From IMG/VR virus record IMGVR_UViG_3300031884_000111, positions 1 through 27,478 of that record: a stretch of 27,478 bases of DNA. One strand, 5' to 3'. The DNA is from a virus. Of the stretch, positions 1 through 12,800 are shown one piece after another. The notes beneath the pieces were generated by a model. The model was not told the DNA's origin, did not search any database, and saw nothing but the letters and a program-made list of their open reading frames with translations. A program made the position numbers and the translations under genes. How positions within the stretch are numbered: position 1 is the first letter of the stretch; each line of letters opens with the position of its first letter.

Positions 1-1834
1 CAGCTTCTTCTTCATCTTTACGCATTGCTTCTTCTTCCTCATCATCGTCATCTTTTTTGAATTCCATGTGACCAGGATGTTCAACCATGCCTTCATCATC
101 AGGCTTGATTTCACCATGATCATGTTCTTTTGGATCAGAACCTTCTGCATCTTTACGCTTTTTAGAATCGTCATCTTTACGCTTCTTGTCAGCTTTACGC
201 ATCATATAGGCTTTAGCTTCAGATTCAGACTCATCATCATCATCTTTTTTAGCCATTTCTTCTTCCTCATCATCATCGTCTTTACGATGTTTTGAGTCAT
301 CATCTTTGCGCTTTTTATCAGCAGCAGTAACTAATGGTGGAGCAGGTAATTCCTTCTCCATCGCATCCATTCTTGCAGCCAAATCGCCTAGCACAGCGAG
401 TACAGCATCCAACTTATCACCTTGGGCATCTGCCTTTGGTGCAATAGTATTGTCATTCATATCAGACACCTCTTGGTTATTTAAAAGAACTCCTGTGGCA
501 TCGCCACCCTTATCCCATACACCTCTAGACCCTCTAGCTTTCGTAACGATAGCTATATGGTCTAAAAGAAATGGAACACCTTCTATTAAGAGTGGCTCGC
601 CATTCTCAGTAGTTAGTGTAGTGTTTCCAGCAGTATTGTCAAATACTACTGAAGGTGAGGTAGAAATCTCTCCCTCACAAATTTCATTTACAGCATCTTG
701 GTCATAGATTTTAGCAATGCCCCAGACTTCATCGCCTTTAATATAAGGAAGCATAATACTTCCTACTGCACGATTTTTAAATTCCTTAGAAGTAAGAACC
801 GCAGAATCTGGATGATCCATAATGACCATTAATCCATTACATCTTTTTAAGAACTCATCATTTAGATAAAGTGATGGGTCTCTCCAGACATTCTCGCCAA
901 TGCTTGACCGATAAGCCAATCCAGTACCAGTAATGCGGATAGCCAATAACATGATATTGGCATACATTTGTGGACTTGGAATAAGGTTATCAGCCATTAA
1001 CTGAGCAACATCGGTCTCAGTCTTAGAGGATGCAATTTTGAATGCAACTTCTAAACCAGGATGTAATGGCAAAGGTGGGCAAAGCGGATCGCACCAATCA
1101 TAGCCAGTAGACTCATAATTGAGTTTGACTTCTTCTTTTTTTACATCTCTAGCAATGTAGGTGCAGAATTGACCATCATCGTGTAATACTTCTAATTTAC
1201 CCTTATAGTCAATGCCAGTTTCTTCTTTAGTTTCTCTGCGAGCAGCTTCTTCTAAAGTTTCGCTTTCTTTTTGATGACCGCCTGGCACACACCAGGTATT
1301 AGGATAATCGCCACCGCCTGAACCTCTGCGAATTAATAAAGTATGACCTTCACCAGTAACAAACATGATTCCAGAAGCCCGACCTGCTGCACCAGCATTA
1401 TTAGCAATTGGAGCAACTAATTCTGGGGTTTTAGCTACTAGATCAGCAGCATCTGGCACACAATTTGGTACTTCTTTGCCATCTTTTTCTTTCATGCCAA
1501 CTTGTTTATAGCCTTCCCAGCAAGGGTCAGCATCTTGACCAAATCTAGGTACTGTTTGAGATTGGTCTTTAAGACCTTGGATGATTTTAGCTACATCAGC
1601 TAAATCACCTTGAAATTTCTTTAATTCATCTTTTTTGCCAGCACGAATGACGATTTCATCATCTTCTTTAAATTCTGGAGTGCTGAGTGGAGTAGCTTTT
1701 TCTGGGAAATCACCAGAATCATCTTCGCTGTGTTTGATGAATTTTTTAGCCACTTCTTTAGGAATTCCAATGTTGCTATGTCCTGCCAATGCAGCATACA
1801 TAGCTTTTCTTTGTTGTTCCGACTTAAATGGCAT
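1..1834 (-). CDS. Nudix + DUF2213 (prohead protease-like) polyprotein, partial
   Basis: Open from ATG at 1834 (weak SD AAGGT) to the window edge, so the C-terminus is missing; at least 611 residues. Order of parts: residues 1-35 carry the phage N-terminal motif FKSEQQRKAMYA; residues 105-126 are the Cys-bracketed phage motif PCWEGYKQVGMK...VPNCVP; residues about 155-235 are a Nudix hydrolase domain with a complete Nudix box at 186-208 (G-x5-E-x7-RE-x-x-EE-x-G-I); residues about 308-440 resemble DUF2213 (VIMDHPDS, STSPSVVF, LDHIAIVTKARG), a family found at the prohead-protease position of phage head operons; from about 505 on the protein is a Lys/Asp/Glu-rich low-complexity tail such as scaffolds have. 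It follows the gp7-like head gene by 9 bp. I infer a head maturation protease with scaffold tail; the Nudix domain's substrate is unknown. Confidence 0.75.
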   Translation of the reverse strand, partial: MPFKSEQQRKAMYAALAGHSNIGIPKEVAKKFIKHSEDDSGDFPEKATPLSTPEFKEDDEIVIRAGKKDELKKFQGDLADVAKIIQGLKDQSQTVPRFGQDADPCWEGYKQVGMKEKDGKEVPNCVPDAADLVAKTPELVAPIANNAGAAGRASGIMFVTGEGHTLLIRRGSGGGDYPNTWCVPGGHQKESETLEEAARRETKEETGIDYKGKLEVLHDDGQFCTYIARDVKKEEVKLNYESTGYDWCDPLCPPLPLHPGLEVAFKIASSKTETDVAQLMADNLIPSPQMYANIMLLAIRITGTGLAYRSSIGENVWRDPSLYLNDEFLKRCNGLMVIMDHPDSAVLTSKEFKNRAVGSIMLPYIKGDEVWGIAKIYDQDAVNEICEGEISTSPSVVFDNTAGNTTLTTENGEPLLIEGVPFLLDHIAIVTKARGSRGVWDKGGDATGVLLNNQEVSDMNDNTIAPKADAQGDKLDAVLAVLGDLAARMDAMEKELPAPPLVTAADKKRKDDDSKHRKDDDDEEEEMAKKDDDDESESEAKAYMMRKADKKRKDDDSKKRKDAEGSDPKEHDHGEIKPDDEGMVEHPGHMEFKKDDDDEEEEAMRKDEEEA

Positions 1835-3048: not shown

Positions 3049-3546
3049 TTAAGCAGCTTCTACTTCTGGAGCAATGACACCAACTGAAATCCAATATTCA
3101 TTGTGCATATAACCACCAGCAAATAACTTGTAAACCAAGTGACTTGCATACCCATTGAATCTCATGTTGTAAAAACTATGGGCATCTTTGAAACTATCTG
3201 GAGCACCTTCCATGCCAGAGTAATATCCTTTCATGAACTGGTAAATCTTTTCACCCAAGGCATCACTCATTTTATTGTCAACAAAGGCATATTTCACTTG
3301 GGGAATGTCATCCCTGCGATTGCTGATCTCATAAATATCTTCCATGCCATTGAAGTGACCATACTCAAACTGACTGACATAGCTGCTCAACTCAGCATAT
3401 TGCGCTGGGGGCAAATCCTGAACATACACATGAATGCTGCTACCCATGCTATAGCTTTTGCTGCGAACTTGACCAGCGATGCCTTTGGCTTTCATAAACT
3501 GGCGAACCATTTTGGCAGCACCAGCATGACTACTAATTGAACCCAT
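3049..3546 (-). CDS. LPD29-like phage/plasmid accessory protein
   Basis: A 165-aa protein starting at an ATG with SD AAGGAG. The N-terminal 90 residues (SSHAGAAKMVRQFMKAKGI, VRSKSYSMGSSIHVYVQDL, YVSQFEYGHFNGMEDIYE) match what I recall of the Large Polyvalent Protein associated domain 29, usually found in large mobile-element polyproteins and here standing alone. The C-terminal part is Tyr/Phe-rich (FYNMRFNGYASHLVYKLFAGG). It is first behind its own strong promoter (TTGACA-16-TATTAT at 3588-3615). The molecular role of LPD29 is not known to me; family assignment is from memory of the pattern. Confidence 0.5.
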   Translation of the reverse strand: MGSISSHAGAAKMVRQFMKAKGIAGQVRSKSYSMGSSIHVYVQDLPPAQYAELSSYVSQFEYGHFNGMEDIYEISNRRDDIPQVKYAFVDNKMSDALGEKIYQFMKGYYSGMEGAPDSFKDAHSFYNMRFNGYASHLVYKLFAGGYMHNEYWISVGVIAPEVEAA

Positions 3547-3615: not shown

Positions 3616-3863
3616 GCAGCTTGTAGCTTTTTTTCACAATATCCATATTCTTCTTCCAAGATCATGCGAATGTGCTCCCGATCCACAGAATCCCCAACTA
3701 CAGGAATACCGCAGCGATACTTGCGACCATCCTTTGATTGCAAAAAGCGGATAGCTTGCTTAATGATTTCATAAGGCACTCCCATGTCATAAATACCGCC
3801 ATCGCCATAAAAGCTGTAAACATATCTAGCGAACACAACCAAATCTTTATAAGCCATAGCCAT
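3612..3863 (-). CDS. Hypothetical 83-aa protein
   Basis: The start is chosen at the ATG at 3863, which has the SD AAAGGA six bases upstream (AAAGGAATTGAAATG); the longer frame begins inside the preceding gene. Visible features are an aromatic N-terminus (AYKDLVVFARYVYSFYGDGG), a Lys/Arg stretch (SKDGRKYRCG) and an acidic C-terminus (ILEEEYGYCEKK). No domain recognised. It is the last gene before the internal promoter at 3588-3615, and its upstream neighbour ends one base before it. Confidence 0.5.
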   Translation of the reverse strand: MAMAYKDLVVFARYVYSFYGDGGIYDMGVPYEIIKQAIRFLQSKDGRKYRCGIPVVGDSVDREHIRMILEEEYGYCEKKLQAA

Positions 3864-3864
3864 T

Positions 3865-4089
3865 TCAATTCCTTTTATTAGCGACACATTCAGCACAATC
3901 ACACTCAACCACATCATTCCTGGCTGATTCCCTTAATTCTTTCATTGAGTCATAACCTCGCACATGAACCAGATCATCAGAGAATCGGAAGCCATAAGGC
4001 AGGTTTAGGATGTAATCAACATATCCATTACCCATTCCTTGATCCCCAGAGACATCGACATCTCGAAAAACATTTAATTTGTATTTCAT
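3865..4089 (-). CDS. Hypothetical 74-aa protein with C-terminal Cys cluster
   Basis: The start is the ATG at 4089, preceded by AAAGGAATTGAT, nearly the same initiation sequence as the next gene; the longer frame starts upstream of the UUCG hairpin. It has a Gly/Asp-rich N-terminal half (VDVSGDQGMGNGYVDYILNLPYGFRF) and ends in ECDCAECVANKRN, where the C-x-C-x2-C spacing could bind metal. Function unknown. Confidence 0.5.
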   Translation of the reverse strand: MKYKLNVFRDVDVSGDQGMGNGYVDYILNLPYGFRFSDDLVHVRGYDSMKELRESARNDVVECDCAECVANKRN

Positions 4090-4102
4090 ATCAATTCCTT
4101 TC

Positions 4103-4120
4103 AAAGCCCCCGAAGGGGCA
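4103..4120 (-). terminator. UUCG-loop hairpin (copy 2)
   Basis: Identical 18-mer to 3027-3044. It follows the stop of the 85-aa gene closely and precedes the SD of the next gene by only a few bases. Confidence 0.5.
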
Positions 4121-4123
4121 GGT

Positions 4124-4381
4124 TTATGCTTCAAACACTCTCAAATGACCAGGGTTCATCCATTCAGCGAACAAGCCATATTTCCGCAACACATTGATGA
4201 TTTCTGGGCTGACTCCAAATTCCCAATCAGGCATTCGATAGCCATCATAGTAGTCAACAAACTGGTAGCTATTGGCTTCTTCAGCACTAATGTCAAAGCG
4301 ATCTTCAGCATCACTATGGACAAAAACTGGAACACCGATTTTTTGCAAGGCATTAAAGGCTCTGCGGTAATTTGCTCTCAT
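4124..4381 (-). CDS. Hypothetical 85-aa protein, first gene of leftward accessory operon
   Basis: The ATG at 4381 has SD AAAGGA (AAAGGAAATTGAAATG). Two short charged/aromatic parts are visible: MRANYRRAFNALQKIGVPVFVHSDAEDRFDI and MPDWEFGVSPEIINVLRKYGLFAEW. No known domain. It is transcribed from the promoter at 4420-4447, divergent from the 47-aa gene pair. Function unknown. Confidence 0.55.
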   Translation of the reverse strand: MRANYRRAFNALQKIGVPVFVHSDAEDRFDISAEEANSYQFVDYYDGYRMPDWEFGVSPEIINVLRKYGLFAEWMNPGHLRVFEA

Positions 4382-4419
4382 TTCAATTTCCTTTCATGAT
4401 TAATAAACACTACCCCTCT

Positions 4420-4447
4420 ATCTTATACCTATTTAGTATAGAGTCAA
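4420..4447 (-). promoter_or_regulatory. Leftward accessory promoter with spacer palindrome
   Basis: Minus-strand TTGACT (4442-4447), 16-bp spacer, TAAGAT (4420-4425). The spacer contains ATACCTATTTAGTAT (plus-strand reading, 4425-4439), an imperfect palindrome closely related to the one in the divergent promoter at 4533-4547, suggesting a shared repressor. Confidence 0.55.
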
Positions 4448-4524
4448 TAGGTTTTGTGCAAAAAACAACAAATATTTTTGATGTTGTATTTTTGTCATAC
4501 ATCTAAAAATAATTGATAAAGTAC

Positions 4525-4552
4525 TTGCATCTATACTTAATAAGTATGATAC
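4525..4552 (+). promoter_or_regulatory. Rightward accessory promoter with perfect palindrome in spacer
   Basis: TTGCAT (4525-4530), 16-bp spacer, TGATAC (4547-4552). Positions 4533-4547 read ATACTTAATAAGTAT, two 7-bp arms around one central base. The same CTATACT-A-ATA-GTAT pattern lies at the same place in the divergent promoter. Confidence 0.5.
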
Positions 4553-4590
4553 TAATAATGTAGTGTTAATCATCAATAAAGGAGTTAATC

Positions 4591-4734
4591 ATGGCTTTTT
4601 ATGTTTGCGGTGTCCCAGTTTTCGGTATTGAGCAAGCCCAGGAGATGTATGCGATTGCGGTTGCTGGTGGTGCGATGATCCAGGCAGAAGCGATTGCAGA
4701 AGTTATTGTCCAAATGCAATACATGGGGGTGTGA
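4591..4734 (+). CDS. Hypothetical 47-aa protein, paralogue A of a tandem pair
   Basis: It starts at an ATG with a good SD (AAAGGAG) 35-40 bases after the rightward promoter. The sequence (FYVCGVPVFGIEQAQEMYAI, then Ala-rich AEAIAEVIVQMQYM) aligns without gaps with the next gene: both are 47 residues and share the pattern F-x-x-x-G-x-x-V-F-x-x-x-Q-A-Q. This is a short amphipathic Ala/Gln-rich helix after a hydrophobic N-terminus; function unknown. The two genes are separated by one base, and the cassette position suggests an accessory (moron-like) role. Confidence 0.6.
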   Translation: MAFYVCGVPVFGIEQAQEMYAIAVAGGAMIQAEAIAEVIVQMQYMGV

Positions 4735-4735
4735 A

Positions 4736-4879
4736 ATGAGTTTTCCTATTTATGGCTATGAAGTGTTTAGTCTCCAGCAAGCCCAGGCAATTTTGGCTTT
4801 AGCGATTGCAAAAGGTCAGGTTCGCAGGGCTGCGGTTGCGAGAGCAGTTATCCAACAATTCCAAGGAGCAGCAGAATGA
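4736..4879 (+). CDS. Hypothetical 47-aa protein, paralogue B of a tandem pair
   Basis: The start is the ATG at 4736, giving exactly the length and N-terminal alignment of paralogue A; the ATG at 4694 lies inside gene A. Motif in common: F-x-x-Y/C-G-x-x-V-F, Q-A-Q, A-x-A-x-A-x-G, V-I-x-Q. Compared with A, the middle is more basic (KGQVRRAAVARA), so the copies have diverged in charge. It overlaps the next gene by 4 bp (ATGA). Confidence 0.6.
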   Translation: MSFPIYGYEVFSLQQAQAILALAIAKGQVRRAAVARAVIQQFQGAAE

Positions 4880-5010
4880 ATATTCAATTGAACCAGGAGC
4901 AAGCAGATTTGCTATTGCATTTGCTCCAGATGGTAGATGGTCGAGTGCAGTATGCAGATGTCCAGGATCAAATCAATAATTTACTTAACCAAGTTGGGGG
5001 TGCAGTATGA
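4876..5010 (+). CDS. Hypothetical 44-aa helical protein
   Basis: It begins at the ATGA overlap with paralogue B and ends with an ATGA overlap into the next gene; SD AGGAG lies within the preceding coding end. It is Gln/Leu-rich and probably all-helical (LNQEQADLLLHLLQMVDG, YADVQDQINNLLNQVGG), a possible small dimerising protein. No family recognised. Confidence 0.55.
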   Translation: MNIQLNQEQADLLLHLLQMVDGRVQYADVQDQINNLLNQVGGAV

Positions 5011-5210
5011 ATATTTTAGTTGCCAAAAAAATTAATGGAATTTTCCAAAAAGTTGGTGTTCGATATGCAAACAAGCTGCCAGATGGCGGTTTCCCAGGAG
5101 TTGTTTATAACTTGTTTGTCAATGCTGATTTTTATTTTAAGGATGAACCAGCAGCAATTTCATTTGACATTATTTTGGGTGGTGATGAATTTCGAGTTTC
5201 TAAATTTTAA
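5007..5210 (+). CDS. Hypothetical 67-aa protein
   Basis: Starts by ATGA overlap with the 44-aa gene. Beta-rich by appearance (NILVAKKINGIFQKVGVRYA, GVVYNLFVNADFYF, ISFDIILGGDEFRVSKF) and Gly/Phe-rich. No recognised domain. It is followed 10 bp later by the 63-aa gene in the same operon. Confidence 0.55.
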   Translation: MNILVAKKINGIFQKVGVRYANKLPDGGFPGVVYNLFVNADFYFKDEPAAISFDIILGGDEFRVSKF

Positions 5211-5220
5211 GGGGATTGTG

Positions 5221-5412
5221 ATGTCTAGTTACTATGAAGATTTAAAAGTTAATAATCCAGCCAAGTATGCAGATTTAAAAATTGCTGGCAATTCTGACAA
5301 AGTTGCATTAAAGAATATGATTCGAGCATTATCTATTTTGCCTGGTCTTAATTCTGAAGCGGATGATCTTCGCCTGGCAGCAGCAAAAAGATTATTAAAG
5401 AATCGCTATTAA
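5221..5412 (+). CDS. Hypothetical 63-aa protein
   Basis: The start is the ATG at 5221, with AAGGGGATTGTG upstream as ribosome-binding site; the longer frame overlaps the previous gene in another frame and is not needed. Sequence: MSSYYEDLKVNNPAKYADLKI, then a basic helix ending RLAAAKRLLKNRY. It is the last gene of the rightward accessory operon, directly before an intrinsic terminator. Function unknown. Confidence 0.55.
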   Translation: MSSYYEDLKVNNPAKYADLKIAGNSDKVALKNMIRALSILPGLNSEADDLRLAAAKRLLKNRY

Positions 5413-5415
5413 AAT

Positions 5416-5435
5416 AAGCCCCTTGTGGGCTTTTT
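5416..5435 (+). terminator. Intrinsic terminator of the rightward accessory operon
   Basis: AAGCCC-CTTGT-GGGCTT stem-loop followed by a T run (the last stem T's plus three more), 4 bp after the stop of the 63-aa gene. Confidence 0.8.
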
Positions 5436-5438
5436 GCT

Positions 5439-5455
5439 CTATCCTATAGGGATAG
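5439..5455. promoter_or_regulatory. Inverted repeat upstream of the 71-aa gene
   Basis: CTATCC-TATAG-GGATAG: two 6-bp arms around 5 bases, between the terminator and the 5488 gene. Downstream TATGATACAAT could be a -10 region, but no good -35 is visible, so this may be an operator overlapping a weak or activated promoter. Confidence 0.35.
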
Positions 5456-5487
5456 ATGTATGATACAATTTAATGAAAGGAGTCTAT

Positions 5488-5703
5488 ATGCAAATAGGCA
5501 AATATGAGATTAGTGACGATGCAATTTTTTGTATTGTTGTTGAAGATGAAATTCCTGTAAGTATTGGTGCTGGCTCTGATATTCCAAGAATTGCCAAATG
5601 GAGCAATGGAGAACCAAAAGAATACAATTTATCGGCTTATCACCTTCCAATTACCAAAGAAAAATTTTATGAATTGGCTATTTTAGACCATTCAGCATCA
5701 TAA
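5488..5703 (+). CDS. Hypothetical 71-aa protein, convergent with the portal gene
   Basis: The start is the ATG at 5488 with SD AAAGGAG seven bases upstream; an ATG at 5473 would place the SD inside the gene. The product (MQIGKYEISDDAIFCIVVEDEIP, SIGAGSDIPRIAKW, YHLPITKEKFYELAIL) has no family I recognise. Its 3' end overlaps the 3' end of the portal gene by 37 bp tail to tail, so both reading frames share sequence; no terminator separates them. Confidence 0.55.
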   Translation: MQIGKYEISDDAIFCIVVEDEIPVSIGAGSDIPRIAKWSNGEPKEYNLSAYHLPITKEKFYELAILDHSAS

Positions 5704-7985
5704 ATTTCTTTCATCTTTTTACCATTAACCTCATAAGTATTTTTTTCTTCTGAGGTTAAATCCCTTTTCTTGGCTATGCCTTCTAAAGTTCTATTTTCTT
5801 TATACAAATCATGAGCCTTGTGTTTTGCTTCTAACATCTGAGGCATATTAATTTGTATTTCAGCATAAGAGCCATTAACCATAAAAACCATATTGACATC
5901 TCGATAACCAGTATCTCCTAGTGATGGAGAATTGGGATCAAGTGTATTTCTATTTTTAACTGGTTCTCCATACTTATCTTTAAGTTTGGAAATAATTTCA
6001 TTTGAATTTTTTAGATTTTTGATTTCAAAAGTAGTTCTTAACAAATCTTTAATTTTGGATGGATCGCCATCATAATCATCAATAATTTTCTCTACAGTCC
6101 TCTGCGATCCCTTTAATGGCACAACATCAATTTCAGCACCAATTTCATCTGCAATGGTTAAATTAAGTTTGTCAAAATCATTTTTATTTTCAGCAACTTT
6201 TTTGTAAATTTCTAATAGTTCTTTTTGTTTATCTTTAGGAAGTTTTTCAATATCTTCTTTTTTAACACTTTCTTTTAGATAATCATCTGGATTAGATGGT
6301 TTAAAAGTCTTTAAAGTTATTCTTTCTTTATGTCCAGGTGCTTTAGGTGGCTCTGCTGCTGTAGGTTTATTTACTGCCTTTGGTGGCTCTGGTGGTTGTG
6401 GAATAGATTTAGCTGCCACAGTATATGGGGCTTGTGCTCGACCACCAGGCATAGTAGTGGTTGCTGCGCTACCACCTGCTCCAGATGTGAATTTTCCATC
6501 CGCATCCCTGGGATGGTCTTGTTCTATGAAAGCATCAGCTTTTGGGGTGGGGTTTGCCCAATCCCCCTTTGCAAAATAAGCATCCAATCTAGGTAAGTTT
6601 TTAAGTTCTTCTTCTGGAATTTCATATTCAGCGATTGCATCAGCATCCAATTGCATAGAACTTTGGAACATATCTGGCATTTCATTCAAATTGTCAGCAG
6701 CCCATTGAATTAAATTTGCTCTATTTTGTGGATCAATAACTGGCAGCATTGTACGAAGTACTTCAGTAACACCTTTTAGCTTAATGTCATCAACTTTGAC
6801 TTTTTCGCTTGGCGGTTCTTCCATGAGTGATTCCCACTCAGGTTTGAAAGCATTTTTCCATGAATAGAATGCTTGCTCATAGGTCATCTTGCCATATTGC
6901 TCTGGATAGGCAGATTGAATAGATTCAAATAATTCTTTATTCCAGGCTCGGTGCATTACGATCTTGTCAAAGAATCGGAACAAAGATTCCATGTCAACTC
7001 GAATGCCATCAATGTACTGGACAATGGCTTTTGCATCTTCAGTACCTTCACCAAAGCCTTGAGTAAATGCTTCATCTTTGAGTAGCATTGCAGGGACATC
7101 GGAAGCAGCAGCAATATTGGCAATGATGTTATCTCTGGCAGTTGTCATTGCAGTTGCAGTATTGGTCAAATCAATGGAGTTGATTTCTTCATCAATATCA
7201 ATTGATAGCACATTGCCAGTACCGCCTTCTTGCAAATAAGTGCGCTTAATACCAGCAGCAGTTTGCATTAAGCGATTGACAATAGACCCAGCAGGTTTTT
7301 GCTTGGCAATAATCAGACCTGACTTAAAAGTAACCAGATCATCAGTAATCATTGACTGTACAAAAGACTTTAGCGGATACAATGCCCTTTGAAACACACT
7401 TCGACCTGTATACCCGAAAGCACTAGATTGGAAAGACAGGTAGATAGGAGTGCCATTGAATACCACCACGCTACGGCTAGGATGATAAGGCTGACCAGCA
7501 GCAGTAGTATATGCAAGAGGTTTTTGAAAGTCTGGCGCATTTGGGTTCTGGTTTGTAACAATCGAACCAGCCATGTTTAATGGGTCTAACTGATTAAAAT
7601 AAATGTTGAGATCAGGAAGCTGCCAAGGATCAATAGGCTCAGTAGTAGGAATCTTATCAGCACCCACAACAATTCCACCAGCCCCATAAGTGCGATTGAT
7701 AAACATAACATCACGAATATGATTAGTAGCACCTAATTTTTCCCATTCTTTTTGAAATGCCTCGACCAACATTTCCTTTGGTTCTGCATCTACAGTAATA
7801 ATTCTGGGTTTTGAAAGAGCCAAGCGAACTGGCTTTTCAACTAATTTACCGCCTAATGGGTGATATTCCCAAATGATTTTGCATAATTCATAACCTGCCT
7901 GTGAACCTGGTTGGATATTCTCAGAACTGAGCAGGTTCATTAATTCACCACCCAGATAAGTATTATTCACCATCACATCAGACAT
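5667..7985 (-). CDS. Portal protein (DUF1073-like) with C-terminal RelA/SpoT-like domain
   Basis: 772 aa, SD AAGGA before ATG 7985. Residues 1-475 are a portal of the DUF1073/gp6-like type: GNVLSIDIDEEINSIDL, then AAASDVPAMLL, GFGEGTEDAKAIVQYIDGIR and FRFFDKIVMHR, in the usual order; its neighbours are TerL upstream and head genes downstream. Around residue 490 comes HPRDADGKFTSG, then a Pro/Ala linker (510-555). Residues about 560-770 look like a RelA/SpoT synthetase fold: K625-x3-R629-x3-K633 (LKGSQRTVEK), D647 in IKDLLRTTFEI, G693-Y694-R695-D-V-N, E709-I-Q-I, then a His-containing AKHKAHDLYKENR. These correspond to the R/K, metal-binding D, G-Y and E-x-Q positions of (p)ppGpp synthetases. 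Ordinary portals of this type end near residue 450-500, so the tail is an added domain. The portal call is firm; the RelA/SpoT call rests on motif reading only. Confidence 0.8.
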   Translation of the reverse strand: MSDVMVNNTYLGGELMNLLSSENIQPGSQAGYELCKIIWEYHPLGGKLVEKPVRLALSKPRIITVDAEPKEMLVEAFQKEWEKLGATNHIRDVMFINRTYGAGGIVVGADKIPTTEPIDPWQLPDLNIYFNQLDPLNMAGSIVTNQNPNAPDFQKPLAYTTAAGQPYHPSRSVVVFNGTPIYLSFQSSAFGYTGRSVFQRALYPLKSFVQSMITDDLVTFKSGLIIAKQKPAGSIVNRLMQTAAGIKRTYLQEGGTGNVLSIDIDEEINSIDLTNTATAMTTARDNIIANIAAASDVPAMLLKDEAFTQGFGEGTEDAKAIVQYIDGIRVDMESLFRFFDKIVMHRAWNKELFESIQSAYPEQYGKMTYEQAFYSWKNAFKPEWESLMEEPPSEKVKVDDIKLKGVTEVLRTMLPVIDPQNRANLIQWAADNLNEMPDMFQSSMQLDADAIAEYEIPEEELKNLPRLDAYFAKGDWANPTPKADAFIEQDHPRDADGKFTSGAGGSAATTTMPGGRAQAPYTVAAKSIPQPPEPPKAVNKPTAAEPPKAPGHKERITLKTFKPSNPDDYLKESVKKEDIEKLPKDKQKELLEIYKKVAENKNDFDKLNLTIADEIGAEIDVVPLKGSQRTVEKIIDDYDGDPSKIKDLLRTTFEIKNLKNSNEIISKLKDKYGEPVKNRNTLDPNSPSLGDTGYRDVNMVFMVNGSYAEIQINMPQMLEAKHKAHDLYKENRTLEGIAKKRDLTSEEKNTYEVNGKKMKEIYDAEWSKIANS

Positions 7986-7994
7986 AGTTATTCC

Positions 7995-9296
7995 TTAGTA
8001 GCCATATTTATCGCCAACACCAATGGCTAAACTATATACGAAAGCATCTAGCAAGTCATCTGCTCTTTTGTAGGCATCTTTATCGCCAATTCTAAATCCA
8101 GTTACCTGAGTTAATAGGTGATTACGACTAGCATTTTTAAATGTCATAGTCTTATCAAAAGCATAATCGCTAATCTTCATTAAGCCCTGGTGAAAGTAAC
8201 CCGATACAGAAATGGCTCTTTCATCCTTGCCTACTGAGGTTAACCCTGAGTCAATGGCATGAGTATTCCATCCTCTTGCTCTGCCTTGTTGAATCAAAAT
8301 TGATCCAGCAGCAGCATCTTCAATAAATGTACCGACAACTCCCTGCCTTGCATTAGTCAATCTAGCGAGTTCTTCTAATCTGGAAAATACACTTGGCATC
8401 CAATTTTCTAGCATTGCGCCATCAATTTGCACAATATCCCAATCCAATAAAATCAGGTTATATGGATTTTGGGTATATCGGTCTACAGCAACATAGACAA
8501 TGGCAGTACCATCATTTTCTTTACCGCCTTTGACCGCAGTATCAATGACTGCATATACACCATCGCATTTACTAGGGTAAACCACAGGTTTATTATCGAC
8601 CAGCAGCTTATCTAGGCTAAAGAATGCTTCACCTGACCAATCCACGAATTCAGCCAGGTATTCTTGCTTAAATACCATTGGATGATTTTCTCTCTCCAGC
8701 TTTTCCAATTCCTCTTTAGGTAGAAATGGATTAGTAAAGGTTGGAGCATGGTATTCAGTAAATCCATGTTCAGGCTGATTGCATATCTGCCAAAAGAAGT
8801 TGTCGCTATCAATTCCATTGGGTGTTGATGCTGTAATACAACTACCTTGATAATCGAGTAATGCTGGTTTGATAGCGGTTTGCCATACTTTAGACATATT
8901 GGGCTTGGTAAAGGCTGCTTCATCAATAAAGGCTTTATGGTATTTCCTGGATCGACCAGCCCTTTCATTTTCCAAAGTCCAGAAGTCTATGCGCCCACCA
9001 GTATAGGTTTGAATAATGCCATCAATCTTAGATGATGACTTAATCATGGGAGCTAATAGATCGGCTATTTCTCTAAAGGCTTCAGATTGGATTTTATAAT
9101 CAGGTGCGAACCACCCTATTTTTTCGCCTTGGGCTGCTCCAGCACAAGCAATGTTTTGCATCATGGCAGTTTTGCCCCATCGCCTACCGCAGCGAATAGC
9201 AAAAAATCGAGTGGAAGCATCAAAGGCTTCTTGTTGTCCCTGGTGTAAAGGGGGTAATTCTATGGGTTCTCTACCTTGTTTTGACAGGGATGCCAT
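7995..9296 (-). CDS. terL: Terminase large subunit (packaging ATPase/nuclease)
   Basis: 433 aa. N-terminal ATPase: Walker A GRRWGKT at 37-43, Walker B FIDEA at 123-127, coupling motif ITASTPNG near 154-161. C-terminal RNase H-like nuclease: acidic residues D252 (VIDTA), E326-D327 (FIEDAAAG) and D413/D414/D417 (ADDLLDAFVY). It pumps DNA into the prohead through the portal and cuts it. The start ATG lies within the end of terS (26-bp overlap) without a clear SD, so translation is probably coupled. The portal gene follows after 9 bp. No key residue is missing. Confidence 0.93.
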   Translation of the reverse strand: MASLSKQGREPIELPPLHQGQQEAFDASTRFFAIRCGRRWGKTAMMQNIACAGAAQGEKIGWFAPDYKIQSEAFREIADLLAPMIKSSSKIDGIIQTYTGGRIDFWTLENERAGRSRKYHKAFIDEAAFTKPNMSKVWQTAIKPALLDYQGSCITASTPNGIDSDNFFWQICNQPEHGFTEYHAPTFTNPFLPKEELEKLERENHPMVFKQEYLAEFVDWSGEAFFSLDKLLVDNKPVVYPSKCDGVYAVIDTAVKGGKENDGTAIVYVAVDRYTQNPYNLILLDWDIVQIDGAMLENWMPSVFSRLEELARLTNARQGVVGTFIEDAAAGSILIQQGRARGWNTHAIDSGLTSVGKDERAISVSGYFHQGLMKISDYAFDKTMTFKNASRNHLLTQVTGFRIGDKDAYKRADDLLDAFVYSLAIGVGDKYGY

Positions 9297-9723
9297 TGAC
9301 TGTCCAGTTATTGTTTTCTACATCAAATTGAACTTGATCGCCATATTTTTTAGGACACCATTTAGCTAATAGTTTTAGCCTAGTATCGACTTGTAATCTA
9401 CGATGATTAAAAGCATCAGCCACTACGACTTTAACTTTTGTTGGTTTTCCTTGATCTTCAATGGTTTCTTTTGTTTCTAAATAGCAAGGAGTATCAGCAA
9501 TCATTAGGGCTTCTTCGGCTATTGCATCAAAGCCAATCTCCCTTGCGTGTGCGATGTGTGCGGAAAATGTATTATCTTTTGCCATCCAATCATACACAGT
9601 TCTCCAGTTTGGCATTCCTTCAGATCGACAAATTGCTCTTAATGGCTCTCCATCTGACAATCTTTCAGTAATCTCATGGGCTATTTCTTCAGTAAAGGTG
9701 GATGGTCTGCCCTTTTCTTTCAT
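9271..9723 (-). CDS. terS: Terminase small subunit
   Basis: The start is ATG 9723, which overlaps the upstream stop as ATGA and has GGAAG at proper distance; an ATG 12 bp upstream lacks a site. The 150-aa product opens with KGRPSTFTEEIAHEITERLSDGEPLRAICRSEGMPNWRTVYDWM, an HTH typical of TerS that binds the packaging start site, then a helical oligomerisation part and RLQVDTRLKLLAKWCPKKYGDQVQ, a common C-terminal motif of this TerS group. Position directly before terL agrees. It recognises cos/pac and hands DNA to TerL. Confidence 0.88.
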   Translation of the reverse strand: MKEKGRPSTFTEEIAHEITERLSDGEPLRAICRSEGMPNWRTVYDWMAKDNTFSAHIAHAREIGFDAIAEEALMIADTPCYLETKETIEDQGKPTKVKVVVADAFNHRRLQVDTRLKLLAKWCPKKYGDQVQFDVENNNWTVNGIPVKTR

Positions 9724-10196
9724 AAATACTTCCATTCACCAAATAATTCTGGTTTTTTCCATGCAGCATATCTAAGCATGGCTTTTCTTTCTTCAATTTT
9801 TTCGGTGGTTGGTATATTTTTCCATTCATTGACAAGTCTAGCCATGAAATTTTTAATAATCCATACTTTTCTTTTAAATGAATCATTTTCATCTCTAAAT
9901 GGTTGATTTCCGCCTTTGGCAATATTAAGAAGTTTTCCAGATTCTTTATATTGAGCAATCATTTGTTTTTCTAGGGATTGCCAATCATTACTTATAGCAC
10001 AGGCTAATATAATCAATTCTACTGAATTTGGATTTTTTCTAATCCATTGATGTAATTTTGTATTTCGCCTTTTTGAGTCATAAATATGTTGTTTTAATCT
10101 TTTTTTTGGATCATCCGATTTTCCAATATAGATTATCTCTCCAGTTTTTTTATCTGAGAGTCCATATATTTTAGAAAATTTAACTTGTTTATCCAT
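9720..10196 (-). CDS. GIY-YIG family nuclease
   Basis: 158 aa; the N-terminal 90 residues form a GIY-YIG domain: IYG (10-12), YIG (23-25), catalytic-type R33 and H37 in KKRLKQH, and E76 in SLEKQMIAQYK. The C-terminal third is basic and has no recognised DNA-binding module. Such genes in phages are often free-standing homing endonucleases; its place just before terS, tightly overlapping it (ATGA), may instead make it part of the packaging operon. Weak SD at ATG 10196. Which role applies cannot be told from sequence. Confidence 0.8.
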   Translation of the reverse strand: MDKQVKFSKIYGLSDKKTGEIIYIGKSDDPKKRLKQHIYDSKRRNTKLHQWIRKNPNSVELIILACAISNDWQSLEKQMIAQYKESGKLLNIAKGGNQPFRDENDSFKRKVWIIKNFMARLVNEWKNIPTTEKIEERKAMLRYAAWKKPELFGEWKYL

Positions 10197-10206
10197 AATT
10201 TCTAGT

Positions 10207-10264
10207 GTCAGGTAGGCATCTTTTGGGATGTAGCGAATGCAAGGACAGTTGCACCCTACCTGAC
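10207..10264. repeat. Long inverted repeat with two internal hairpins between two nuclease genes
   Basis: Arms GTCAGGTAGG (10207-10216) and CCTACCTGAC (10255-10264) are a perfect 10-bp pair. The 38-base interior holds two more pairs: CATC/GATG (10217-10220 with 10227-10230) and TGCAA/TTGCA (10238-10242 with 10249-10253). The whole could fold as a three-way junction on either strand. Candidates: part of the cos/packaging site upstream of terS, a diverged REP-type palindrome, or a structured mRNA leader for the GIY-YIG gene. Confidence 0.6.
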
Positions 10265-10287
10265 GATTGGAATATTAGCACAAGCTA

Positions 10288-10575
10288 TTACAAAGTGTTA
10301 GTAGTAATACTGAGTTTGGTGTTAATCATGTCCAAAAGCGAATCTTCCGATGGGTAGATTTTTTCAAATGATTTTCTCCCCATTCCATGAATCCCTGCAT
10401 TCCCTCTATGATGTTCTCTACACAAGGGGATAACAGGGGCTTGGTCTCTAGGTTTGGTTCTGCGGATGTGGTGCAACTCTGCTGGTGTGCCTTCTCCATA
10501 TCCGAGGTGGTAACACAAAATGCAGCCAAATCTGGCAATTCTGTCATACATCCTTTTTTGTTCTTTATTTGCCAT
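10288..10575 (-). CDS. HNH nuclease resembling Ref (RecA-dependent nuclease) family
   Basis: 95 aa. Zinc/HNH pattern: C18-x2-C21, H35-H36 (ELHHIRR), C52-x2-HH55-56 (PLCREHHRG), H63 in GIHGMGRKSFEKIYPSEDSLL. The order HHIR...R...IPLC..HH.G..G.HG is that of the P1 Ref-type and related phage HNH nucleases that act with RecA in recombination. HNH genes next to terminases can also assist packaging in cos phages. ATG 10575 overlaps the preceding gene by 11 bp and has no clear SD, so coupling is likely. It is the last gene of the replication operon. Confidence 0.72.
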   Translation of the reverse strand: MANKEQKRMYDRIARFGCILCYHLGYGEGTPAELHHIRRTKPRDQAPVIPLCREHHRGNAGIHGMGRKSFEKIYPSEDSLLDMINTKLSITTNTL

Positions 10576-10816
10576 TTATCGCTAATGCAATATTGATTGC
10601 TTTACTTACTGCCTTCCATATTTCTTTAGGAAGTGTAATAGTAATCATGTCTGATCCCTTTAGGCTTGGGGATACTTCTACCCAATGATCCATGTACCAA
10701 GAAAAAAGGCTACCCTCTGGATTTTGGCTAAACCAGATTTGATTAGGCTTTGAGTCTACAGGATTTTGACCCCAGGGCAAAGTACCCATGTATTCAGGAT
10801 TAAAAGAATAACTCAT
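10565..10816 (-). CDS. Hypothetical 83-aa protein
   Basis: Trp/Pro-rich N-terminal part (NPEYMGTLPWGQNPVD, NQIWFSQNPEGSLFSWYMDHWVEV), then a helix (LPKEIWKAVSKAINIALAI). No recognised domain. It starts by ATGA overlap with the upstream 30-aa membrane gene and overlaps the HNH gene by 11 bp, so it belongs to the same tightly coupled operon. Confidence 0.6.
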   Translation of the reverse strand: MSYSFNPEYMGTLPWGQNPVDSKPNQIWFSQNPEGSLFSWYMDHWVEVSPSLKGSDMITITLPKEIWKAVSKAINIALAINGK

Positions 10817-10905
10817 TTCTCATTAGCTTTTCTTAATCTCAATTTAACGACAATAATCAATATTGTTAGGTACATACCAGCCAACATTCCATAAGCGAAT
10901 TCCAT
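10813..10905 (-). CDS. Small 30-aa single-span membrane protein
   Basis: ATG 10905 is preceded by AAAGGCACAAGAGAAATA. The product is a hydrophobic segment (AYGMLAGMYLTILIIVVKL) followed by a basic tail RLRKANEK. The stop overlaps the next start as ATGA. The tail coding sequence resembles the end of the 88-aa gene at 11017-11283 (both end LRKA-x-EK), as described under the junction repeat. Function unknown; small size and one membrane span are typical of phage regulators of host membrane functions. Confidence 0.6.
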   Translation of the reverse strand: MEFAYGMLAGMYLTILIIVVKLRLRKANEK

Positions 10906-10906
10906 T

Positions 10907-11039
10907 ATTTCTCTTGTGCCTTTCTTAACAAAAATGTTTACCTAAATTAAAGACAACATAAATCAATAAAACTGTTGGCAATATTATTTTCATAAACACT
11001 TCAAAAAAACTGTAATTCATTTCTCTTGTGCCTTTCTTA
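10907..11039 (-). repeat. Duplicated gene-junction sequence
   Basis: Plus-strand positions 10907-10927 and 11019-11039 are the same 21 bases (beginning ATTTCTCTTGTGCC, ending TTTCTTA). The right copy encodes the end of the 88-aa gene and supplies the ribosome-binding site of the next gene; the left copy is non-coding and serves only as leader of the 30-aa gene. A third, diverged copy (17 of 21) is at 10815-10835 at the end of the 30-aa gene. Confidence 0.7.
10925..11020 (-). CDS. Small 31-aa single-span membrane protein
   Basis: Starts by ATGA overlap with the 88-aa gene; SD AAAGG in that gene's end. Sequence: MNYSFFEVFMK, then hydrophobic IILPTVLLIYVVFNL and a short GKHFC end. One transmembrane helix predicted by eye. 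The 3' end runs into the second copy of the junction repeat. Function unknown. Confidence 0.55.
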   Translation of the reverse strand: MNYSFFEVFMKIILPTVLLIYVVFNLGKHFC

Positions 11040-11283
11040 GTAATTCATGCGCAAACTCAACAACACCTTCATCAGAAAATTCATAACTATCAAACAATTT
11101 AATTATTTCCTCATCTGTTAGTGTCTTTGCTGGATGGGTGTAGAGTGGTGTGCCGACTTTTAAAACAGTATCAGCCATTACAGGGTCAAATTGTCTTACC
11201 CCAGTTACAAAGGCTACTGGTTCATCATCCCAGACTTTAGGTCTGACTATGCTAAATGTGCCATCTTGATTATCTTTAATCAT
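11017..11283 (-). CDS. Hypothetical 88-aa phage protein with GTPLYTHP motif
   Basis: The start is ATG 11283 with leader CACGAAAGGGAAAAT, the ribosome-binding pattern repeated elsewhere in this phage. The product includes DNQDGTFSIVRPKVWDDEPVAF and GTPLYTHPAKTLTDEEI; the (V)GTPLYTHP stretch is common in short phage proteins of unknown role. The C-terminus is a helix ending LLRKAQEK. Same operon as NinB and the following small membrane genes. Confidence 0.6.
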   Translation of the reverse strand: MIKDNQDGTFSIVRPKVWDDEPVAFVTGVRQFDPVMADTVLKVGTPLYTHPAKTLTDEEIIKLFDSYEFSDEGVVEFAHELLRKAQEK

Positions 11284-11302
11284 ATTTTCCCTTTCGTGGA
11301 TT

Positions 11303-11689
11303 CTATAATACATCAATTCCTTGCTCTACTGCCCATGCCTGGATGTATTCGATCAACTCGATCATTTCAGGTACAGTTAAATCCGATGTCCTGCGAAAAA
11401 CAATATCAACACCATGTCCATCAATTGCTGGTAACATTTCTACTGGTTCTCCCCTTGCTCGGAGCCAAGCTGCTGTTAGGAGTCTTTTCCATGTCTCTAC
11501 TTCTTGTTTTTTTCCTACCCATTCTATTTTTTGGGCTATTTCTTGTATAAGCGCATGAAGTTTTGCATTTTGCTCTAAGCTGCGATTCTTAGGCTTAATC
11601 GAAACTGCATAGCCATCAGGGGCTTCTAAAATAGCTTGAATAGCATTTTTTCTGGCAACATGATGTGCCAGAATAAAGTTGCTTCTCAT
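11303..11689 (-). CDS. ninB: NinB-like recombination protein
   Basis: 128 aa from ATG 11689, which overlaps the upstream stop as ATGA; this decides against the TTG at 11701. Diagnostic segments of the NinB (Orf) family: RSLEQNAKLHALIQEIAQKIEW, WKRLLTAAWLRARGE, IDGHGVDIVFRRTSDLTVPEMIELIEYIQAWAVEQGI. In lambda, Orf/NinB binds ssDNA and SSB and can take the place of RecFOR in loading recombination functions. Here it sits in a nin-like operon with RusA, and the same phage encodes ERF, exonuclease and SSB. Confidence 0.85.
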   Translation of the reverse strand: MRSNFILAHHVARKNAIQAILEAPDGYAVSIKPKNRSLEQNAKLHALIQEIAQKIEWVGKKQEVETWKRLLTAAWLRARGEPVEMLPAIDGHGVDIVFRRTSDLTVPEMIELIEYIQAWAVEQGIDVL

Positions 11690-12289: not shown

Positions 12290-12772
12290 TTAGCACAATT
12301 CATCGCCACGCAAATAAACAATTGCTTCCATATATTTTTCGTATCTTGCCCAATCAGCCAAAGATGGATTTGCCAATCTACTCATATCGCAGTTATCTCG
12401 CAAATCAGCCAATTTAACGATTCTAGCCAATGGGTTTTTAGAGCATCGAATAATAAATGAATGGTATGACTCACCAGGTCTACGACTGACAGCATCTAAA
12501 ACAGCCAAATTTTCAGGGCTAAATCCTTCAGCCAATAAATCGTCAGAGCTAATATCGCTATCTTCTAAAACATCATGCAATACCGCAGCAATCCTGGCTT
12601 CTGGTGGTACAGACAACATTACTCTTAAAGGATGCAAAATATAAGGCTCACCTGCTTTGTCAACTTGACCAGCATGAGCACTAGCAGCTATGGCAATTGC
12701 ACGATCTAAGCTGGCAGGGATAAATCCCACATCCAACTCAATTAATCCTGCAAATGGTATCGGTTCAATCAC
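12290..12772 (-). CDS. MESH1/SpoT-like HD hydrolase (small alarmone hydrolase)
   Basis: The start is chosen as GTG 12772 (160 aa): it has AAAGG seven bases upstream, and the in-frame ATG at 12796 lies at or before the transcription start expected from the promoter at 12801-12829. HD-domain residues in the spacing of MESH1 and SpoT hydrolases: H33 (SAHAGQVDKAGEPYILHPLRV), H66-D67 (AVLHDVLEDSD), E70-D71, D123 (IVKLADLRDNCDMSRL). Human MESH1 uses H35, H61, D62, E65, D66 and D122. The family cleaves the 3'-diphosphate of (p)ppGpp, and some members cleave NADPH or related nucleotides. No synthetase domain is attached. It has its own promoter within the replication operon. Substrate is inferred, fold is well supported. 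Confidence 0.82.
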   Translation of the reverse strand: MIEPIPFAGLIELDVGFIPASLDRAIAIAASAHAGQVDKAGEPYILHPLRVMLSVPPEARIAAVLHDVLEDSDISSDDLLAEGFSPENLAVLDAVSRRPGESYHSFIIRCSKNPLARIVKLADLRDNCDMSRLANPSLADWARYEKYMEAIVYLRGDELC

Positions 12773-12800
12773 TTTATTACCTTTCGTATCCAACATAAGT

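Follow-up and report, generated by a model that had tools for sequence, protein, structure and literature searches.

The subject of this analysis is the portal gene of a freshwater bacteriophage represented by a 27,478-nucleotide metagenomic virus record, IMGVR_UViG_3300031884_000111, the whole of which is referred to here as the window. The encoded protein runs past its portal module into a C-terminal domain resembling the toxin Tas1, and a small gene on the opposite strand overlaps the 3' end of the portal gene. The features under study, with the evidence for each in parentheses, are the following.

5667 to 7985, minus strand: portal protein with a C-terminal Apk-type synthetase domain, 772 amino acids (aa) (open reading frame [ORF]; PF06381 and PHROG 146 for the portal part)
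6606 to 7985, minus strand: portal module, residues 1-460 (alignment to sister-phage portals ending at about 470 aa)
6489 to 6518, minus strand: junction motif DHPRDADGKF, residues 490-499, at the start of a Gly/Ala/Pro linker (same motif at module boundaries)
5667 to 6308 including the stop codon, minus strand: Tas1-like predicted pyrophosphokinase domain, residues 560-772 (Tas1 match, invariant catalytic residues, AlphaFold2 model)
5488 to 5703, plus strand: candidate immunity protein, 71 aa, with a putative Tis1/IapK-like role (locus co-occurrence, weak Tis1 fold match, co-divergence, cassette exchange)
5476 to 5482, plus strand: Shine-Dalgarno sequence AAAGGAG, 5 nucleotides before the ATG of the immunity gene (sequence)
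12290 to 12796, minus strand: Aph1-type HD hydrolase, 168 aa, a predicted (p)ppApp hydrolase (match to PDB 7smg, E 3.6e-30)

The portal ORF matched Phage_portal_3 (PF06381) over residues 38-329 (E 6e-16) and the portal family PHROG 146 over residues 12-438 (E 1.5e-51). A plain phmmer search of the PDB with the C-terminal 213 residues (560-772) returned Tas1 (6ox6_A), a type VI secretion toxin that makes (p)ppApp, with an E value of 8.7e-13, and the match of this domain to PF04607 (RelA_SpoT; E 0.0024, 18.6 bits) lay under the gathering score of 27 and did not reach the curated cut-off. K625, R629, K633, D647, R650, G693-Y694, E709, and Q711 were invariant across 15 aligned phage homologues and stayed so once a Bordetella phage protein and Tas1 itself were added. 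AlphaFold2 modeled residues 560-772 as a RelA/SpoT-homologue synthetase fold with a mean predicted local distance difference test score (pLDDT) of 94.8 and a predicted template modeling score of 0.86. The best PDB match of this model was Tas1 chain A (Foldseek E 3.3e-7; VIA Z 15.5 over 167 residues at 29% identity), with SaEAS, RelP, and RelQ ranking just behind. A first-pass annotation, made from the sequence alone, had proposed a RelA/SpoT-like domain at the portal C terminus, which the Tas1 match and the AlphaFold fold confirm, and its list of synthetase motifs with intact catalytic residues proved correct. The range of 5667-6310 that it gave was right in location and two bases off frame, the domain plus stop codon occupying 5667-6308. 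Taken together, the alignment and the model indicate that the portal C terminus is a complete small-alarmone-synthetase domain with conserved catalytic residues.

The 71-aa gene is arranged tail to tail with the portal gene, the two overlapping by 37 nucleotides (5667-5703). Shine-Dalgarno-like sites also precede most of its homologues, while sigma-70-like sites near the gene did not exceed chance. To place the locus among its relatives, we carried out a portal-based scan of IMG/VR, which yielded 250 relatives and from which 80 loci were retained. Every synthetase-bearing locus of this portal group with enough sequence encoded a 65- to 77-aa ORF convergent to and overlapping the 3' end of the toxin. 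A profile of the immunity family was found at 33 of 33 synthetase-bearing loci but at 0 of 39 loci without a synthetase; many loci are near-identical, so these counts are not independent. When portals were grouped into 28 clusters at 97% identity, the immunity gene was present in 9 of the 9 clusters with the toxin and in 0 of the 19 without it.

The AlphaFold2 model of the 71-aa protein had a pLDDT of 86.8, and its first match among 350,542 PDB chains was Tis1 (6ox6_B), the Tas1 immunity protein, which was crystallized together with the toxin. The match is weak (Foldseek E 2.7; VIA Z 4.1), so that this predicted resemblance is suggestive by its specificity rather than by its strength. The window was also compared with a near-identical phage (L007). 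Nucleotide identity was about 97-100% along the portal to approximately position 6385, apart from one stretch of 92%, fell to 53-72% over the toxin and the immunity gene to approximately position 5502, and returned to 99-100% just beyond. This pattern indicates that the toxin and the immunity gene were exchanged as one unit. Moreover, toxin distances correlated with immunity-protein distances (rho 0.84) to a greater extent than with portal distances (rho 0.58), in pairs that are not independent. Judged by their sequences, the toxin and the 71-aa gene behave as a cognate toxin-immunity cassette.

Most portals among the IMG/VR relatives stop at about 470 aa. Others run on past a constant junction into a synthetase, a Zeta-like P-loop domain, or unassigned sequence, and some other sister phages encode the synthetase domain separately, in an ORF of about 305 aa right after a short portal. 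The recurrence that the first-pass annotation had suggested looking for was thus found: the same portal-synthetase fusion is present in many IMG/VR contigs, with portal identities of 77 to 100% across separate assemblies. The junction, [DEHN]xPR[DG]xxG[KRQ][FW] followed by Gly/Ser/Ala, marks the module boundary in fused portals and recurs in many of the stand-alone cargo ORFs; it had 0 matches in shuffled sequences and is absent from the more divergent portals L104-L106. A single portal cluster of >97% identity holds both synthetase-bearing C termini (L023 and L033) and another type (L047). The locus thus joins a constant N terminus, an exchangeable C-terminal toxin, and a co-exchanged immunity gene, by which polymorphic toxins are recognized. 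We conclude that this is a portal-borne polymorphic toxin system; sister phages with similar portals have other alleles, a Zeta-like kinase, a separate toxin ORF, or nothing.

The P-loop cargo fell just under the cut-off for Zeta toxin when fused to a portal and above it in stand-alone versions. Zeta-toxin-like domains form the portal C termini of L026, L027, L040, and L044, and stand-alone ORFs of this kind with the same HPRDxDGKF junction occur in L032 (5622-7052), L035 (2504-3676), and L038 (5511-6647). Beside head genes, we also observed stand-alone ORFs in which similar N-terminal modules of about 35-45 aa precede unrelated C termini (L043, 4069-4998; L045, 9404-10936; L058, 9422-10882; L012, 13417-13908; L074, 8814-9266); these modules are possibly a virion-targeting tag.

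The window encodes a second potential antidote. Its HD protein was nearest to PDB 7smg, annotated as a (p)ppApp hydrolase, at the E value listed above, with Rel enzymes next best (1.2e-10). The HD residues are kept, and the protein reads QVDKAG where 7smg has QIDKAG and Rel has QYRKSG. Among 23 whole records, an alarmone hydrolase and the toxin occurred together in 7, the toxin alone in 1, the hydrolase alone in 1, and neither in 14 (Fisher P = 2.5e-4); the toxin-only record is a fragment, and its sister L010 has part of a hydrolase gene. For MuF-borne Apk2 toxins, it was found by experiment that Aph1 protects across toxins and that IapK is mostly specific (PMC12226406). An unchanged hydrolase together with a co-exchanged small gene is the pattern that such broad and specific protection predicts.

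A wider scan recovered a group whose synthetase domains are embedded in larger ORFs, some of which also have DarB-like, ddrB-ParB, or RadC domains. In this group, which lies outside the window (loci L108-L142), the immunity homologue is antisense and wholly within the toxin ORF, directly after the synthetase domain, at 30 loci, all of which share one phase. Two examples are as follows.

L108, 6606-6863, minus strand: nested immunity gene within toxin ORF 3781-7023 (plus strand)
L134, 6579-6845, minus strand: nested immunity gene within toxin ORF 5092-11358 (plus strand)

The L134 toxin ORF also contains a DarB-like antirestriction region (PHROG 10089, 3.6e-271). A profile built from the non-nested immunity group alone found most of the nested copies (1e-5 to 1e-12). 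Across the immunity stretch, the toxin frame had 0 stops in 1306 codons in the nested group, compared with 51 in 1121 codons at non-nested loci, which do not use that frame for coding. Shine-Dalgarno-like sites precede the ATG in several nested copies, and some more divergent copies have no obvious start. Substitutions fall on position 3 of the immunity codons, but in the observed phase this is also position 3 of the toxin codons, and the codon-position test does not separate the constrained frame; because of this coincidence, the case for nested genes is built on homology to the non-nested family, the Shine-Dalgarno-like sites, and the absence of stops.

The phage group looks virulent, within the limits of record completeness, because neither a tyrosine integrase (PF00589) nor a serine recombinase (PF00239) was detected when 21 related records, none longer than 52 kb and all possibly incomplete, were searched. 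PADLOC models gave no match. The nearest portals of isolated phages are 44-47% identical to that of the window, and a scan of genome contigs with the toxin domain recovered five distant relatives. Directly upstream of the portal gene is a terminase-type ORF (7995-9296), and just upstream of the terminase genes lies a GIY-YIG endonuclease ORF (9720-10196, minus strand; PF01541, 5e-9), likely a homing endonuclease. The ORF at 2-1834 (minus strand) has a Nudix hydrolase domain (PF00293, 2e-15) fused ahead of DUF2213, of the head maturation protease type, a layout shared with PHROG 6216 (7e-113), which gives this phage a second enzyme linked to a head protein. A conserved small protein (3049-3546, minus strand) showed a weak, below-cut-off match to LPD29, a large polyvalent protein associated domain (E 1.6e-4).

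From the computed fold, catalytic residues, linked immunity-type gene, hydrolase, and cassette exchange, we infer how the domain may act, how it may be released, and what purpose it may serve. The C-terminal domain is probably a catalytically active pyrophosphokinase of the adenosine (Tas1/Apk) type that comes with a dedicated immunity protein; it would transfer pyrophosphate from ATP to the 3' position of adenine nucleotides, make (p)ppApp, and drain ATP. Being fused to the portal, the domain would be incorporated into the head at the portal vertex. While particles are being made, the 71-aa protein most likely binds and blocks it in the manner of Tis1/IapK, and the Aph1-type hydrolase would destroy any (p)ppApp formed as a second layer of protection. 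Possibly after cleavage at the HPRDxDGKF/Pro-Ala junction, the domain may then accompany the DNA into the next host and arrest that host's metabolism at the start of infection, after which antidotes made by the phage would restore the nucleotide pools. The step of delivery into the next host, taken alone, strikes us as evenly balanced. It is favored by the occurrence of the same toxin domain in large ORFs with DarB-like, ddrB-ParB, or RadC domains, since P1 DdrB, a protein of this kind, is reported to be packaged in the head (PMC5512222). For the wider proposal, that apparently virulent phages use the portal as a platform for delivering polymorphic toxins, with the matching immunity gene on the opposite strand, tail to tail in the portal group or wholly antisense with both frames translated in the large virion-type proteins, we find the balance tipped slightly in favor.

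Several observations weigh against this account. To our knowledge, the portal itself is not injected in known phages, so delivery would require a release step. The linker of the window has no internal start with a convincing Shine-Dalgarno sequence from which a free toxin could be made; internal initiation was considered as a source of free toxin and rejected, as in-frame linker ATGs in the window and its relatives lack such a site, and one TTG with AAGGA upstream occurs in the linker of L007 only. Besides the weakness of the Tis1 fold match, profile and sequence searches of the PDB with the immunity family gave no Tis1 match. Toxin-bearing sister phages carry a MESH1-type hydrolase downstream, not an Aph1-type one, and L045 has an Aph1-type gene (4382-4966, 53% identical to that of the window) in a phage without the synthetase, where it may be a defense against other phages' toxins or a relic. 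Finally, the syn3 motif of the portal toxin, GYRDVN (pattern GYRDxN), has Asp in place of Gly in the GxN signature described for Apk toxins (PMC12226406); the Asn of GxN is kept in it and in most homologues.

Other explanations have to be weighed. The toxin may remain undelivered and act in the producing cell, through addiction, superinfection exclusion, or ATP drain at lysis, with the portal fusion only limiting its dose. A phage that encodes antidotes itself implies that the producing cell is at risk, portals are not known to be ejected, and the release mechanism is a postulate. Purely intracellular action would, however, make attachment to a virion protein pointless; the same domain also occurs in stand-alone ORFs right after sister-phage portal genes, and more distant relatives have it in large ORFs together with DarB-like or ddrB-ParB domains, which are typical of proteins packaged in virions. 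We regard action confined to the producing cell as a rather unlikely but serious alternative. Doubtful, too, is a toxic small alarmone synthetase (toxSAS) that, like FaRel2 and CapRel, pyrophosphorylates the tRNA CCA end and stops translation, the hydrolases then stripping pyrophosphate from tRNA. It would belong to the same fold family, and CapRel (Z 12.0) and FaRel2 (Z 7.4) are among the structural matches; the syn3 departure and the MESH1-type hydrolases of sister phages fit it as well. Nevertheless, Tas1 is nearest by both sequence and structure, the hydrolase of the window matches the (p)ppApp hydrolase best, with an E-value margin of about 20 orders of magnitude, and the GxN Asn is kept in most homologues, so that we consider a tRNA target improbable.

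The first-pass annotation had also offered two alternative roles, an active pyrophosphorylating enzyme and a decoy for host toxSAS/CapRel-type defenses; it made no mention of the antidote genes, the exchange of the cassette, or the stand-alone forms in sister phages. The former role is strongly favored by the closeness to Tas1, the conserved catalytic residues, and the presence in the same phage of an immunity-type gene and an Aph1-type hydrolase. The idea of a decoy or trigger-sink without catalytic activity draws on the direct activation of a CapRel-type immune system by a viral capsid protein (PMC9712102); every catalytic residue is invariant, though, and a dead protein would need neither a co-exchanged immunity gene nor an alarmone hydrolase, and we reject the decoy as very improbable. 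An assembly chimera of a portal and an unrelated synthetase, conceivable for a metagenomic virus record, is rejected with near certainty because the fusion recurs in many independent assemblies at the portal identities given above, with a similar junction each time.

If the active, self-immune pyrophosphokinase proposed here is correct, alarmone toxins are carried not only on minor head proteins (MuF) but also on the portal, which every tailed phage has as a structural component. Such carriage also extends to phages without a recognizable integrase, for which a prophage-borne weapon against competitors is not a fitting account. What phage Apk toxins do physiologically has been stated as an open question (PMC12226406), and a purifiable virion component makes that question direct. 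An antisense immunity gene would be an unusual lock between toxin and antidote and, if both frames are translated, the toxin gene could hardly be inherited without its antidote. In the open-licence papers searched, neither a portal-RelA/SpoT fusion nor an antisense immunity gene was found.

Among known systems, effector-type enzyme domains fused to the portal have precedents. RelA/SpoT domains on MuF and polyvalent virion proteins have been published, as have 2H, PBECR, and InPase domains fused to portals (PMC3482391, PMC5512222); in the portion consulted of the latter survey, by Iyer et al. (2017), no portal-RelA/SpoT fusion or immunity gene was found. Exported alarmone synthetases such as SaEAS (PMC12691689) are among the best structural matches and embody the same idea of a delivered synthetase, but their carriers are secretion systems, and phage portal carriers are not mentioned. 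The Tas1-Tis1 pair of the Pseudomonas aeruginosa type VI secretion system (Apk1; PDB 6ox6) supplies the nearest solved structure of the toxin domain and the first, weak, fold match of the immunity candidate; unlike the phage system, it is bacterial, has a PAAR/type VI secretion carrier, and reads GYSGVN rather than GYRDVN at syn3. MuF toxins have been tied to temperate phages (PMC5576092), whereas no integrase was detected in the 21 records related to the window. The closest known system is the MuF-carried Apk2, whose toxins make (p)ppApp only and are countered by the same two antidote types, IapK and Aph1 (PMC12226406). In both, one phage combines a Tas1-like synthetase at the C terminus of a head protein with a small immunity gene of the blocking type, a candidate in the window, and with an Aph1-type hydrolase. 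The carrier here is the portal, with an N-terminal Phage_portal_3 module, and for this reason the toxin is not an Apk2 by definition; the window has a separate MuF-like head-morphogenesis ORF (1844-2644) without a toxin. Furthermore, the Apk2 immunity genes, iapK and aph1, follow the toxin gene, whereas in the window the immunity gene is convergent to and overlaps the toxin and the Aph1-type gene lies 4.3 kb upstream.
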